Origin: Fimbriimonas ginsengisoli Gsoil 348
GTDB lineage: Bacteria; Armatimonadota; Fimbriimonadia; Fimbriimonadales; Fimbriimonadaceae
Direction of reading: 5' to 3'
NCBI RefSeq assembly: GCF_000724625.1
Contig: NZ_CP007139.1
Span: 3,224,001-3,288,000, forward strand
DNA: 64,000 nucleotides
A model generated the notes under the pieces. It searched no databases, was not told the DNA's origin, and worked only from the letters and a program-made list of their open reading frames with translations. The translations under genes were made by a program, and so were the position numbers. This document shows positions 24,505-40,830 of the stretch, in pieces; the stretch's first letter is position 1; each line of letters opens with the position of its first letter.

Positions 24505-25713
24505 TCACCCCTCTTCCATGGCGAACTGCTTTGTCGTGTTCTTCGCCGCCAGAAGAAGGAACTCGTAGTTCTCTTTCTCCTGCTTGGAGAGCGACTTGAG
24601 CGTGAACCTTGGGTTCGGTTTGTACCAGGGTAGCGACGAGAAGTAGTTCCGCAGGGCTCGGTCGGCGAAGACTTTGCCGTGGCGGGCGGGGATCTCGTTG
24701 GCGAGCTTGCGAAGGTCCTCGACGAACAGGCCAGTCAGGCGTTGATGGGGAATCGGCTTCTGAGTCAAATCGTCATGGAGACGCTGTTCGAGCTTGACGA
24801 TGGTTTTGAGGTTCTCCGAATCGGTGGCGGTTAGCTTTTCGTTCTGCCCTTCGGGGAGCGGGGAATACCACTCAACGTTCGCGAAGTATTCGCGGAGCCA
24901 GGGAGTCTTAAAGCGACGGCCGCGCATGGCGTAGATCGCGTTTCGGGTGACCCGCAACTCATAGAGCGAAAGGTTATGGAGCGCTTTCTCCGGAATCGGC
25001 TTGTCGGCGTACGTCATGACGTCGGCCGGAACGAACGTCGTTCCTCTGATCTTCTGTTCAACCGTCTTTAGGGCGGCGAGATTCTCTCGCTCGATCTTCG
25101 ACAAGCTCGATGCGCGATAGCTCGGGTCTGGCTTGTACCAATATCGCTCGTCGAAATACTTCTGAAGCAGCGGCTCGCCGGGAAAAGTTCGGCCGTGGAT
25201 CGCTTCGATTTCGGCTTGCATGATGCGGAGGTCCGCGATGCTGTAGCCCTGGTCGGCGGAAAGCTTCTTGTCGAAGCGCTTGGTCTGCCAAAACCGGAGG
25301 TCGCCGGGTTGGATCCGCCAGTGGTTATGGGATTCCGCTTCCCGGATGAGGTCGATGTTCTTTCGCTCGGTGTCGTTCAGCTCGGCGTTGCTGAATTTTG
25401 GGTCCGGGCGATACCAGGGACGCTTCTTAAGGAAATCCTGGATCTTCGGCTCGTGGAAGATCCGCCCGTGTTTGCCGAAAACGACACCGCGCAGCAAGAC
25501 GATCGAGGCCACCTCGTCGTCGCCCATCGGGTTGTCTTCTTTGTTGAGGCGGTCGAGGTCGGCCTTCGTCAGTAGCCGGTTTTTGAAGTCGAACGACTCG
25601 AGGCGGTGTAAAGCCGGGTAGGGATCTTGGGCAAACGCACAAGGGACGACGAACAAGAAGAGGCTCGCCAGAAGGGGGTGTTTCGTATATTTCCTCTGCA
25701 CCGTGGCTGCCAC
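24505..25713 (-). CDS. Secreted YARHG-repeat protein
   Basis: 402 residues from a GTG at 25713 (a second GTG is at 25701). A signal peptide (HPLLASLFLFVVPCAFA) precedes four copies of a YARHG-type unit, each reading roughly hydrophobic-RGxxF, a short helix, F-x(4)-WYxPxP and a Lys/Glu-rich helix: VVFGKHGRIF with RPWYRPDPKF, AIHGRTF with YWYKPDPSY, AIYAMRGRRF with VEWYSPLPE, and EIPARHGKVF with LPWYKPNPRF. YARHG domains are extracellular, mostly in surface proteins; their ligand is not established. Most family members have one or two copies, so four is on the long side. Confidence 0.8.
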   Translation of the reverse strand: MAATVQRKYTKHPLLASLFLFVVPCAFAQDPYPALHRLESFDFKNRLLTKADLDRLNKEDNPMGDDEVASIVLLRGVVFGKHGRIFHEPKIQDFLKKRPWYRPDPKFSNAELNDTERKNIDLIREAESHNHWRIQPGDLRFWQTKRFDKKLSADQGYSIADLRIMQAEIEAIHGRTFPGEPLLQKYFDERYWYKPDPSYRASSLSKIERENLAALKTVEQKIRGTTFVPADVMTYADKPIPEKALHNLSLYELRVTRNAIYAMRGRRFKTPWLREYFANVEWYSPLPEGQNEKLTATDSENLKTIVKLEQRLHDDLTQKPIPHQRLTGLFVEDLRKLANEIPARHGKVFADRALRNYFSSLPWYKPNPRFTLKSLSKQEKENYEFLLLAAKNTTKQFAMEEG

Positions 25714-25945
25714 TCGTTAGGCGTCCGCCAGCGCTTGTGCAGATTGTATTCGAGGTTTGATCCTCCAGCAATAGGCTTGGCGAAAGTCCTTTTATCTTTA
25801 CAGGGGCGAGCCGCCCCTGATACCCAGGGCGAGCCGCCCGTGCCACGTCCGGAATTCTCCACCCCCAACCCCCTCCTCATCGCAAATCGACCGTGACGGC
25901 GGTGACTGACGCTTTCGTGCGACGAGGAGGGGGCTCTGGAAGGTA
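25714..25945. other. Gene-free stretch with hairpins and a C/T-rich repeat
   Basis: No coding region is supported here. It holds a hairpin CAGGGGCGagcCGCCCCTG (25801-25819), a weaker neighbour CAGGGCGagcCGCCCGTG (from 25825), and a C/T-rich element at about 25860-25945 whose loop lacks the usual ACATAC. Promoters for the divergent YARHG gene and for the riboswitch RNA must lie in it; I could not single out a -35/-10 pair. Confidence 0.6.
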
Positions 25946-25949
25946 CTCT

Positions 25950-26112
25950 CTTTGGACTCGCGAGGGCCGTTCTGAAGAGATCGGTCTGAGCCGGGGGAAG
26001 TCCGGTGAGAATCCGGCACTGTGCCGCAATGGTGTTTCCGGCGGTCGACGATTTGGAGCATGTTTCCAAATTTCGGCCAGTCGGAAGAGTCCAACTACCC
26101 GCCTCGCGAGAG
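25950..26112 (+). ncRNA. Cobalamin riboswitch (adenosylcobalamin-type aptamer)
   Basis: The conserved core is present: GGGGGAAGTCCGGTGAGAAT leads into CCGGCACTGTGCCGCAATGG (25992-26031), and the B12-box side GGCCAGTCGGAAGAGTCCAA is at 26074-26093. The closing stem P1 pairs CTCGCGAGG (25957-25965) with CCTCGCGAG (26102-26110) perfectly. These are the universally conserved parts of the cobalamin riboswitch family. It is on the plus strand, about 140 nt before the prepilin-type gene at 26249, which it most probably controls. Confidence 0.85.
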
Positions 26113-26143
26113 GACATCGTGACGCTGTCGCCTACGAGCATAG

Positions 26144-26174
26144 GTGAGCAGGTGCGGGTTGGGCTTTTGCTCAC
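26144..26174 (+). promoter_or_regulatory. Hairpin between riboswitch and prepilin gene
   Basis: GTGAGCA (26144-26150) pairs with TGCTCAC (26168-26174), followed by the pyrimidine run TTCCGTTCCTCCTCCTGTTCC. It is a candidate expression platform (terminator) for the riboswitch, although the stem is short. Confidence 0.4.
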
Positions 26175-26248
26175 TTCCGTTCCTCCTCCTGTTCCGTTCG
26201 ACGGCCTCACCAAGACCGCGCCGTCACAGCGCATTGGGAGGTACGTAA

Positions 26249-27022
26249 ATGACCCGCTCTCGCAGAGCATTCACACTTATCGAGCTACTCGTCGTCATCG
26301 CGATCATCGCGATTTTGGCGGCGATCCTTTTCCCCGTCTTCGCCCAGGCCAAAGCCGCCGCGAAGAAGACGCAATCGACCTCGAACCTCAAGCAGACCGG
26401 TCTCGCTTGGCTGATGTACAACTCGGACTACGACGACACGCTTATGCGGATTCGTCTACCGGGGGCCGATGCGGATCACGCCGTCTATTTTTGGGGAGAG
26501 TGGAATAACGCGACCCAAACCCTTGATCCCAAGAAGGGCTTCTTGTTCCCGTACACCAGGAGCAAGGGGGTCGGCAGCGATCCCACGATGCCGGAGGGCT
26601 TTCGAGCCGCCCTCGGCGAAAACGGATACGGCTACAACTACGTGTATCTGTCGCCGTCGAACTACGATTCCAGCTACAACGAGATCCCGGTTCCGGTGAA
26701 CTACGGCCAGATCGGCGCGTCGGCCGACACGGTGGCGTTTGCCACATCCGCCCGAATGAGCTTCTTGACGCCGCACCACCCTGAGGCGAACGGCTACCTG
26801 GAGCCTCCGAGCAGCGAGTATCCGACATTCCAGGGCCGCCATGCGGGCCAGGGGCTGGTTCTATGGTGCGACGGCCATGTGAAGACGCGCCGACCGGTTC
26901 TCCGCGTCGGCGTCTTCGGATACGGCGGGGCTTACAACGCCGGCGAGTTCACCCCGATCTCGCTAGGCGAGATCGACGGTGACGGGGATCTCCATACGGA
27001 CGATTTATTCGACTTGGAGTAG
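26249..27022 (+). CDS. Prepilin-type H-X9-DG protein under cobalamin riboswitch
   Basis: 257 residues. The type IV prepilin signal [20 protein letters not shown] with Glu at +5 is cleaved by a prepilin peptidase and leaves a hydrophobic helix. [13 protein letters not shown] follows, as in the DUF1559-like family of Armatimonadota and Planctomycetota. Near the end, [16 protein letters not shown] is a true H-X9-DG motif. The role of the family is not known (surface or secretion pseudopilins). GGGAGG lies upstream of the ATG. Being preceded by a cobalamin aptamer is unexpected, since such RNAs normally control B12 synthesis, uptake or B12-independent enzymes. Confidence 0.88.
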
Positions 27023-27121
27023 TAGGTGTTGGGCGTTGGGCGCTGACTGGGCTTTGCCCTGACGATAGGTCAGATGGGGCACATGGGTCCTATCCGTCCC
27101 GCGGCGCTCGAGGCCAAGGCC

Positions 27122-27868
27122 TTAACGCCTCGCCCCCGCCGGCCACTTACCAAGAATCGTCACCGGGGTGCCTCGTTCGACCCAGTAGTAGAACCAACGG
27201 GCTGGATTGCCTCCCGACATCGGGAGGCGGATACAGCCGTGCGAGGAGTGGCCGGCCGACGCTCCGTAGCCGTGGATGAAGATGTTGCCGACGATGTGCA
27301 CCGCCCACGGTAGGGGAACGTTGGCGTACAGGTGAGAGAGGTGCACCTTCTCCTTTTGTCCATCCGCGCGGAAGATCCCGGAAGGGGTGTTCTTGCCTTC
27401 GCGGCCGGTACTGACTTTGCTTCGAAAGACCGTTCGGCGGCCCTGGAAGGCGACCATCATCTGAGTCTTCTTATTGACGAACACCCGCTTCATGCCCCGA
27501 CGCACGTAAAAGGCGCGGCCCACTCGTTTTGCATCTTTTACGGTCGTAAGGCCAGTCTTTGAATTCGAGTTGACAATCGCCCCTGCTTTGCTTAGCCATG
27601 AAACTGCGATGAGCCGCGCTCCCATTTGAGTAGAACGCAACGTGCTCATGGGCACGGAATGGCCGTGCAAGGTAAGTCCGGCGGCATTGCGGCCGATCTG
27701 CCAGCGCAGCATGTGAGAGACGTCGCGCATCGGCAAATAAAGGCGGTTGGGTTGGTCGGCGAAGGTAATCGCGTCAATGGTTGCAAGCGGGGCGGCGTGG
27801 GTCAAACAGGTGAATACAGTGGCGCTAAGCGTCAGTAAAAAGGAGGGCACGACCATCTGACCTTCCAT
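27122..27868 (-). CDS. L,D-transpeptidase (YkuD) with copper-amine-oxidase-like N-terminus
   Basis: 248 residues from ATG 27868; ATG 27856, with GGAAGG just upstream, is an alternative. After a signal peptide (MVVPSFLLTLSATVFTCLTHA) there is a stalk-type domain (FADQPNRLYLPMRDVSHMLRW) like the copper-amine-oxidase N-domain of cell-wall proteins. The YkuD catalytic domain ends with HIVGNIFIHGYGASAGHSSH directly followed by GCIRLP, giving the His and catalytic Cys. The enzyme would make 3-3 cross-links in peptidoglycan or attach proteins. It diverges from the MFS transporter gene. Confidence 0.9.
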   Translation of the reverse strand: MEGQMVVPSFLLTLSATVFTCLTHAAPLATIDAITFADQPNRLYLPMRDVSHMLRWQIGRNAAGLTLHGHSVPMSTLRSTQMGARLIAVSWLSKAGAIVNSNSKTGLTTVKDAKRVGRAFYVRRGMKRVFVNKKTQMMVAFQGRRTVFRSKVSTGREGKNTPSGIFRADGQKEKVHLSHLYANVPLPWAVHIVGNIFIHGYGASAGHSSHGCIRLPMSGGNPARWFYYWVERGTPVTILGKWPAGARR

Positions 27869-35374: not shown

Positions 35375-36169
35375 CTAGTTCGGTTTGGCGAGCAGGTAGT
35401 GGTACTCGTCCTTGGCAGAGAGCATCGGCGAGGCGGGAATCTCCTTCGGGTACTTCAACAAGTAGCCGAGGTGCTTCGACTTCATCGTTTCGGGCGAGAT
35501 TCCATAGTTCGAGACGCCGCTGTAGTAAAGCTTGTGCGATTTGGCGTGGCCATCGAGCCAGGCGACGTTCGCCATGTCGCCGCCGTGAAGGGCGTGGACG
35601 AAATACGGTCCCATGTTGACCCAGAGGATATTGTATCGAGCGAGGTTAGGCCCGTAGAGCGCGGCGGCGTCGGCCATGAGGACGGTGTCGGCCGGCATTT
35701 CGACCGAGCTGAAGTTGGTGGAAATCCAACCGGTTGAGAGGTCTAGGAAGAGGTGATAGTTGACGGCGTAGGCGACCGGCATGTCGGCCGCGCCCTTGGT
35801 GATGCCGGTGGCGGAGGGGCAGTCGACGATCTGTCCGTTCTTCATGTAGGGGCCGACGAACCCGTTATTGAAATCCCACGTCGGGTTGCTGGCGCGAGAC
35901 TGTCCGAACCACATGCGCACCCCGGGATCTGCGCCGTCGATGTTGTATTGGAACGGGTAGATCGTGTCGTCGTAGTCGTTCGCGTACATGATCGTGGCGA
36001 GGCCGATCTGCTTGAGGTTCGAAAGACAGTTCGTCTTTTTGGCTGCCTCTTTGGCTTGGGCGAAAACCGGGAAGAGGATGGCGGCGAGGATCGCGATGAT
36101 CGCGATCACGACCAGAAGCTCAATGAGGGTGAACGCACGTCGCGCGGAGGGGGAATTGATACGGTTCAT
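35375..36169 (-). CDS. Prepilin-type protein (DUF1559-like)
   Basis: 264 residues. Prepilin cleavage signal [20 protein letters not shown], then [20 protein letters not shown] and a conserved segment [20 protein letters not shown]. The C-terminal motif reads [20 protein letters not shown], an H-X10-DG variant of the H-X9-DG signature. A GGAGC ribosome site lies 8 nt before the ATG. It is the first gene of a pair with the TlpA-like protein; two cysteines (in TNCLSN and VDCPSA) could be substrates for that thioredoxin. Confidence 0.88.
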
Positions 36170-40753: not shown

Positions 40754-40830
40754 TGGTCGGGATGAAAGGATTCGAACCTTCGACCTCTGCGTCCCGAACG
40801 CAGCGCTCTACCAAGCTGAGCCACATCCCG
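40754..40830 (-). tRNA. tRNA-Pro (anticodon CGG)
   Basis: On the minus strand the acceptor CGGGATG pairs with CATCCCG, followed by discriminator A and an encoded CCA. The D arm is GGCTCAGCTTGGTAGAGC, the anticodon stem-loop is CTGCG-TTCGGGA-CGCAG with anticodon CGG, and the T arm contains GGTTCGAATCC. It reads proline codon CCG. The 77-nt length includes CCA. Confidence 0.97.

Follow-up and report, generated by a model that had tools for sequence, protein, structure and literature searches.

A divergent cobalamin riboswitch homolog ahead of a type IV prepilin gene in Fimbriimonas ginsengisoli, its recurrence in Armatimonadota, and a possible role in corrinoid capture

The window analyzed here, a stretch of 64,000 nucleotides (64 kb) from Fimbriimonas ginsengisoli Gsoil 348 (published genome size 5.23 Mb, according to an excerpt of PMC4072686), carries on its plus strand, at positions 26249–27022, a gene for a type IV prepilin of 257 amino acids, which has the N-terminus FTLIELL, a prepilin peptidase site and a hydrophobic N-terminal helix. 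The product matches N_methyl (PF07963; 34.7 bits, cut-off 21.2), DUF1559 (PF07596; 29.3 bits, cut-off 23.3) and TIGR02532 (31.7 bits, cut-off 16.3). The first-pass annotation, made from the sequence alone, had called it an H-X9-DG prepilin; the literal motif is present (H198-X9-D208-G209), whereas the family model TIGR04294 gives 18.7 bits against a cut-off of 19 and thus falls 0.3 bits short. The prepilin gene is indeed the only one before an opposite-strand gene, which lies on the minus strand and encodes an L,D-transpeptidase. An AlphaFold2 model of the prepilin (32 sequences, mean pLDDT 88) was compared with solved structures, and the five matches listed are all type IV pilins, the best being PilA4 of Thermus with a middling Z score of 5.1; Foldseek returned no match at E ≤0.001 for this model or for that of a PEP-CTERM protein (WAGSGSN) described below. 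A B12-binding domain within the pilin itself was considered and found no support, the fold searches giving a pilin-like fold and no known B12-binding domain. The closest paralog in the same genome also lies in the window, about 8.5 kb away on the minus strand (35501–36145; 44% identity, 115.7 bits).

Upstream of the prepilin gene, a homolog of the cobalamin riboswitches, probably of the Cbl-II type, extends from the P1 flank to P13 on the plus strand (25946–26148). A covariance model (R2) trained on 42 related RNAs, with the copy of the window excluded to avoid circularity, finds this segment as its sole match in the 64-kb window (97.5 bits, E 1.7e-20), and it is because of this match that we consider the RNA real, since by the Rfam model alone it would be doubtful. 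The cobalamin riboswitch ahead of the prepilin gene proposed by the first-pass annotation is accordingly upheld by an independent model. The Rfam model RF00174, which that annotation had suggested as a check, matches 25946–26120 when run on 601 bases (23.7 bits, E 0.0005) without reaching the gathering score of 31.5 bits, which is a curator's threshold rather than a structural feature; in a search of the whole genome (one contig of 5,231,762 bases), the window RNA is the only place with E <1 (E 0.001). An Rfam scan of the entire window at the gathering scores reported no cobalamin match and a tRNA alone, the tRNA gene being located at 40757–40830 on the minus strand (68 bits). Because the window copy lies below the gathering score, it is classed only as a divergent homolog within clan CL00101, of which the features P1, P4, P5/L5 and P13/L13 are all recognizable. 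Its relatives exceed the gathering scores, 14 of 15 hand-chosen related loci doing so for RF00174 or RF01689 (AdoCbl-II), and 13 of the 24 predicted pairs show two-sided changes. The single-strand fold of 25950–26262 is of ordinary stability (z −1.67; 9 of 100 shuffles equally good).

Within this putative aptamer, the conserved core GGTGAGAATCCGGCACTG at 26004–26021 and the perfect 9-bp P1 stem, formed by CTCGCGAGG (25957–25965) and CCTCGCGAG (26102–26110) with 9 of 9 pairs, are present as first described. The P4 hairpin CCGGTGAGAATCCGG at 26002–26016 corresponds to near-invariant columns of our alignment A1 (98–112) and is followed by the P5/L5 region (26022–26029), the proposed partner of L13 in the hairpin CCTA-CGAGCA-TAGG at 26131–26144 (A1 columns 236–249), whose stem pairs with two-sided changes. 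Kissing of L5 with L13 is typical of cobalamin riboswitches, and it is fitted by the joint change of the two loops between lineages, GC occurring with GAGC at 75 loci and CC with GAGA at 19, against 8 crossed loci, of which at least one (that in the window) is a pattern error catching P1 and others among the six "GC with GAGA" cases are possibly mis-scored in the same way, and 25 loci with no recognized L13. Immediately 5′ of the riboswitch, between it and a divergent YARHG-domain gene, lies a near-perfect inverted repeat (25869–25933; 16-nt arms, 94%) that could be a terminator or an operator.

The window copy differs from the Rfam families, and from most of its relatives, in two respects, and from the former also in the gene that follows it, a prepilin gene. 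Its P6 arm (26030–26089) is extended by about 40 nt beyond most relatives in the A1 and R2 alignments, and its J6/3 side, TCCAACTACC at 26090–26099, though recognizable, departs from the common TCCGAATGCC. The B12-box side reported earlier is thus non-canonical here, J6/3 reading CCAACTACC in place of the CCGAATGCC of most relatives and keeping 6 of its 9 letters; CCGAATGCC and ACGAGCA presumably resemble the env8 cobalamin riboswitch. Moreover, an exact 8-bp complement, TTGGACTC/GAGTCCAA, joins 25952–25959 to 26087–26094 and may compete with P1 and hide J6/3, and the minimum-free-energy fold adopts this helix instead of the aptamer, which counts against the explanation favored below. The affinity of the window RNA for corrinoid is the weakest point of the whole case. 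It is conceivable, though unlikely, that this copy is in decay, being homologous to the other riboswitches but with corrinoid binding lost, the pairing with the prepilin gene being functional in the relatives; in its favor are the deviant J6/3, the alternative helix and the lowest best RF00174 score among the 19 genomes of the genus with a match, whereas P1, P4, P5, L5, P13 and L13 are intact, J6/3 varies in a few relatives too, and the predicted sequestration of the Shine–Dalgarno sequence is strong.

That sequestration involves CCTC at 26205–26208 and the Shine–Dalgarno sequence GGGAGG at 26236–26241, 7 nt 5′ of the ATG, on the plus strand, with a predicted pairing probability of 0.998. At the 51 of 62 loci of the family that have a recognized Shine–Dalgarno sequence, its mean pairing is 0.85, compared with 0.74 after the 40 upstream bases were letter-shuffled 20 times per locus, and is higher than in the shuffles at 38 of the 51, a modest excess that modestly favors translational control. 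A consensus scan of 25700–27200 gave no terminator-like and no promoter-like site, so that no terminator-like site was seen between the RNA and the gene.

The pairing of RNA and prepilin gene recurs in Armatimonadota (in the following, G, L and f numbers denote genomes, loci and families of the phylum, f1 being the family of F. ginsengisoli). Of 131 loci with a Cbl-II-type RNA, 104 have a prepilin as the product of the first gene behind it, namely 62/71 in f1, 9/9 in f12, 12/17 in f13, 6/6 each in f10 and f19, 4/6 in f2, 2/3 in f6, 1/2 in f14 and 1/1 each in f24 and f26; against a capture role, it is so at none of the nine loci in f3 (0/5), f4 (0/1), f5 (0/1) and f11 (0/2). Behind the best RF00174 matches of the phylum, mostly of the class-I type, a prepilin is found at 34 of 50 loci, two of them in f3. 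The comparison suggested by the first-pass annotation thus finds many prepilin homologs behind cobalamin-type RNAs, and in both sets combined a prepilin lies within a few hundred bases at 138 of 181 loci. The two sets differ in a class-I signature, which was defined after stricter patterns had failed on most of the 50 and which is carried by 46 of these 50 as against none of the 131, although L130, which belongs to the 131, has a J6/3 of the class-I kind.

These counts are subject to several choices. The 131 loci exclude the weak RF00174 matches L002, L054–L057 and L107–L109 (E 0.07 to 3.4), judged false, and the counts omit G110:C3, G142:C68 and two places in G146, all equally weak, together with the f1 place G147:C417. 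Outside f1, 60 of the listed places of R1 (a model of 54 RNAs, that of the window among them) entered the count, and the top RF00174 set comprises 50 of about 150 listed. L116 (G087) was scored as non-prepilin for want of a usual start codon, though a prepilin-type frame is there. A second Cbl-II RNA in G148 (L166) and in G149 (L167) is followed by no recognizable gene, just a frame of 97 or 87 amino acids; both were scored as misses. As to the spread of the RNA, RF00174 matches at E ≤1 in 19 of 20 genomes of the genus and 68 of 85 of the family, R1 matches in 150 of 291 genomes of the phylum, and an exact Cbl-II pattern occurs in 38 stretches of public genome contigs, all in records of Armatimonadota or "bacterium" except for one labeled Methanoregulaceae. 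At five loci in f3–f5 (L234, L236, L237, L240 and L241), the Cbl-II-type RNA precedes, in place of a prepilin, a secreted-type protein of about 315–350 amino acids that by eye resembles a beta-propeller and might be a BtuG analog, with a second such protein behind it in f4 and f5. Homology of these proteins to BtuG was rejected: their sequence matches among solved structures are all short, the best (0.00016) spanning 37 positions with a Rab family protein, and Pfam named no propeller in the two examined.

The prepilins linked to these RNAs appear, from sequence comparison, to form orthologous groups distinct from the sampled paralogs. In both G096 and G150, the gene that matches the window prepilin best is the RNA-linked one (293.7 and 250.5 bits, compared with 115.7 for its best paralog at home), and in the distant G045 the RNA-linked prepilin is again at the top (97.3 versus 88.2 bits). 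A careful tree of 64 RNA-linked prepilins and 25 paralogs requires 3 changes of the label, compared with 22.1 in shuffles, and places the linked ones in three supported groups of 27, 30 and 7. In a quick tree that also includes class-I-linked members, a branch with SH-aLRT 93 has all 68 linked prepilins to one side, and among these the label for the riboswitch type must change 3 to 4 times. The two trees differ in giving three linked groups or one, and the paralogs in them are just 25, taken from the best matches in four genomes. Our reading of these trees is that B12 control of the prepilin was kept while the type of RNA in front of it was exchanged several times. What the comparisons show directly is the homology of the RNA, the keeping of its pairing with the prepilin gene, the orthology of the prepilins and the gene neighborhood.

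Cobalamin riboswitches usually control B12 transport, synthesis or B12-independent enzymes, and genes of these usual kinds also occur behind such RNAs in the phylum. Pfam identified a FecCD permease in G092 and G095, a BtuF-like periplasmic binding protein in G045 and G049, CbiX/CbiC with CbiD in G056, and class I ribonucleotide reductase as the small chain in G074 and the large chain in G048, G021 and G001; a TonB receptor is located behind the RNA in G020 and also, on the same contig and strand, in G121. Neighborhoods of up to 10 kb were inspected around 59 f1 loci. In G083, G082 and G127, the prepilin gene is followed by genes for a DUF4465 (PF14717) protein (8e-53, 4e-55 and 1e-50, respectively) and a second secreted-type protein. 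DUF4465 proteins, to which BtuJ1/J2 of Bacteroides belong, bind B12 across the family, as described in excerpts of PMC13398666 and PMC12751083.

In other genomes, the prepilin gene is followed by that of a PEP-CTERM family, here called WAGSGSN, whose members (≥95 bits, same strand as the RNA) accompany the RNA in 20 genomes of f1, f10, f13 and f31, 8 of these genomes having supplied the search profile itself. Its AlphaFold2 model (8 sequences, pLDDT 79) is matched by 2pmv with Z 11.4 (VIA); 13 of its best 14 matches are cobalamin carriers, the remaining one being 3u7z, a putative metal-binding protein (Z 9.7), after which the scores drop to 5.9, and Foldseek gives 3kq4 with a probability of 0.99 (E 0.026). 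The predicted fold thus matches the B12-binding beta domain of intrinsic factor and transcobalamin (2pmv, 3kq4 and 5no0; Z about 10–11 over about 100 residues), but at 10–13% identity, in a bacterial protein, and at loci other than that of the window. In the WAGSGSN protein, Pfam recognizes PEP-CTERM alone, bar a single weak hit to DUF5000 (0.042). A BLAST comparison of the partner families related FENG to SNLG (2.8e-6 over 43 residues) and to WAGSGSN (1e-5 over 26), with none of the remaining pairs significant. In f31 (G218 and G217; L003 and L024), the WAGSGSN protein is the longest frame near a class-I-type cobalamin riboswitch. No homolog of the five partner proteins was found in the window, where the prepilin gene stands alone behind the RNA without a B12-binding or transport gene.

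The presence of such secreted proteins behind the prepilin gene in some operons, DUF4465 and transcobalamin-fold proteins alike, would also suit a role in secretion, with the pilin as a pseudopilin in an apparatus akin to type II secretion through which the PEP-CTERM B12-binding proteins leave the cell, and with no contact between pilin and B12, and the genome paper reports a T2SS and 79 PulG-type genes (excerpt of PMC4072686). We consider this explanation improbable: no such protein was recognized in the same gene run at the window locus and at most of the 59 f1 loci, and in those genomes the pilin is therefore kept without recognized neighboring cargo.

The B12 physiology of the genus is in line with a need for external corrinoid. 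CbiC is found in none of the 20 genomes and the B12 domain of MetH in 17, so that any requirement for B12 would have to be covered by scavenged corrinoid. FecCD is above the cut-off in all 20, as a single copy except for G086 (two partial). DUF4465 occurs in 2 of the 20 and was not found in the genome of F. ginsengisoli, which again counts against a capture role. A TonB receptor was detected in 10 of 20 genomes of the genus and 24 of 85 of f1, so that the known outer-membrane route for B12 was not seen in many of these genomes. F. ginsengisoli has one TonB-dependent receptor (L320, genome positions 3368000–3380000), behind ExbB- and TonB-type genes; it is without an R2 match, and none was found near the FecCD gene of this genome. 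The idea that the pilin strictly replaces BtuB was not borne out: in f1, 18 of the 64 genomes that carry the RNA and 6 of the 21 that lack it have the receptor, and pilin and receptor occur together in f13 genomes such as G045 and G046; absence of the receptor does not track the RNA in f1, and the pilin is therefore not simply its substitute.

Referring to known systems, a close likeness is to the btu operons of Bacteroides thetaiotaomicron (BtuB, BtuG, BtuH, BtuJ and BtuK), in which a cobalamin riboswitch stands over several secreted B12-binding proteins (excerpts of PMC12751083, PMC13398666 and PMC8941943), one of these binders being a DUF4465 protein as in G083, G082 and G127. There, the outer-membrane step is performed by a TonB receptor, whereas in the present loci a prepilin gene usually comes first; the word "pilin" is absent from PMC12751083 and PMC13398666 on the btu systems. 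Planctomycete pili-like fibers that bind dextran have likewise been proposed as a means of extracellular nutrient capture, although neither a pilin gene nor a riboswitch is described for them in the excerpt of PMC5394234. In the open-licence literature, we found no report that joins a cobalamin riboswitch with a prepilin or with Armatimonadetes, or DUF1559 with a prepilin, and none, among the titles listed, of a B12-controlled pilin for corrinoid capture, a route that would be undescribed. A c-di-GMP riboswitch controls a type IV pilin in Clostridioides difficile. The c-di-GMP riboswitches of this organism are similarly placed over cell-surface genes, but with a different ligand and a different purpose (excerpts of PMC6200980 and PMC6366702).

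Taken together, the explanation that we favor, with a probability of roughly two in three, is that the gene at 26249–27022 encodes a B12-repressed pilin for corrinoid capture. The part in corrinoid capture or uptake that the first-pass annotation had proposed is supported, if not proven, by the recurring pairing, the orthology, the B12-binding neighbors, the transport, corrin-synthesis and ribonucleotide reductase genes behind other such RNAs, and the distribution of CbiC and MetH. In the predicted mechanism, for which we infer both repression by B12 and a translational mode of control, the RNA would bind corrinoid when it is plentiful, whereupon the Shine–Dalgarno hairpin would be closed and no pilin produced; when corrinoid is scarce, the pilin would be made. 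As a member of type IV pilin lineages that seem to have been kept under B12 control across Armatimonadota, it would serve corrinoid capture at the cell surface, where it may display or pull in the vitamin, or may export and anchor the secreted B12-binding proteins, with a BtuC-type (FecCD) inner-membrane permease as the step that follows.

Adhesion is a common function of type IV pilins. A pilin produced under B12 starvation might accordingly mediate attachment to surfaces or to B12-producing neighbors rather than uptake, and attachment is suggested for this non-motile strain in the genome paper (excerpt of PMC4072686); this alternative is rather implausible, in that the recurring partner genes that can be named encode B12 binders, not adhesion or signaling proteins, and the lineages linked to the RNA stand apart from the paralogs sampled. 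Chance adjacency, which the 99 prepilin-type matches in this 5.23-Mb genome (that of the present gene included) might suggest, can be dismissed, since a density of about one per 53 kb is far from accounting for a prepilin of particular lineages within a few hundred bases of the RNA at 138 of 181 loci.

A B12-repressed pilin for corrinoid capture would bear on several points of the biology of these bacteria. Most of the loci examined (138 of 181) precede a pilin gene, unlike what cobalamin riboswitches usually control. It becomes testable how B12 crosses the outer membrane of diderm corrinoid auxotrophs in which no TonB receptor is detected, as does the purpose of the dozens of DUF1559-type prepilins per genome, the ligand of one of which is guessable because of its regulator. 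The co-operonic proteins with the predicted intrinsic-factor fold would be bacterial fold relatives of the human B12 carriers. As a tentative and rather speculative extension, cobalamin import might be TonB-independent, a starvation pilin together with intrinsic-factor-fold or BtuJ-type binders catching corrinoid outside the cell and passing it via the pilus secretin to the single BtuC-type permease, and the DUF1559/H-X9-DG expansion might represent nutrient-specific capture pilins. If this is true, the greatly expanded prepilins of this kind in Armatimonadota and similar phyla would have a role comparable with that of the SusD-type proteins in Bacteroidetes.
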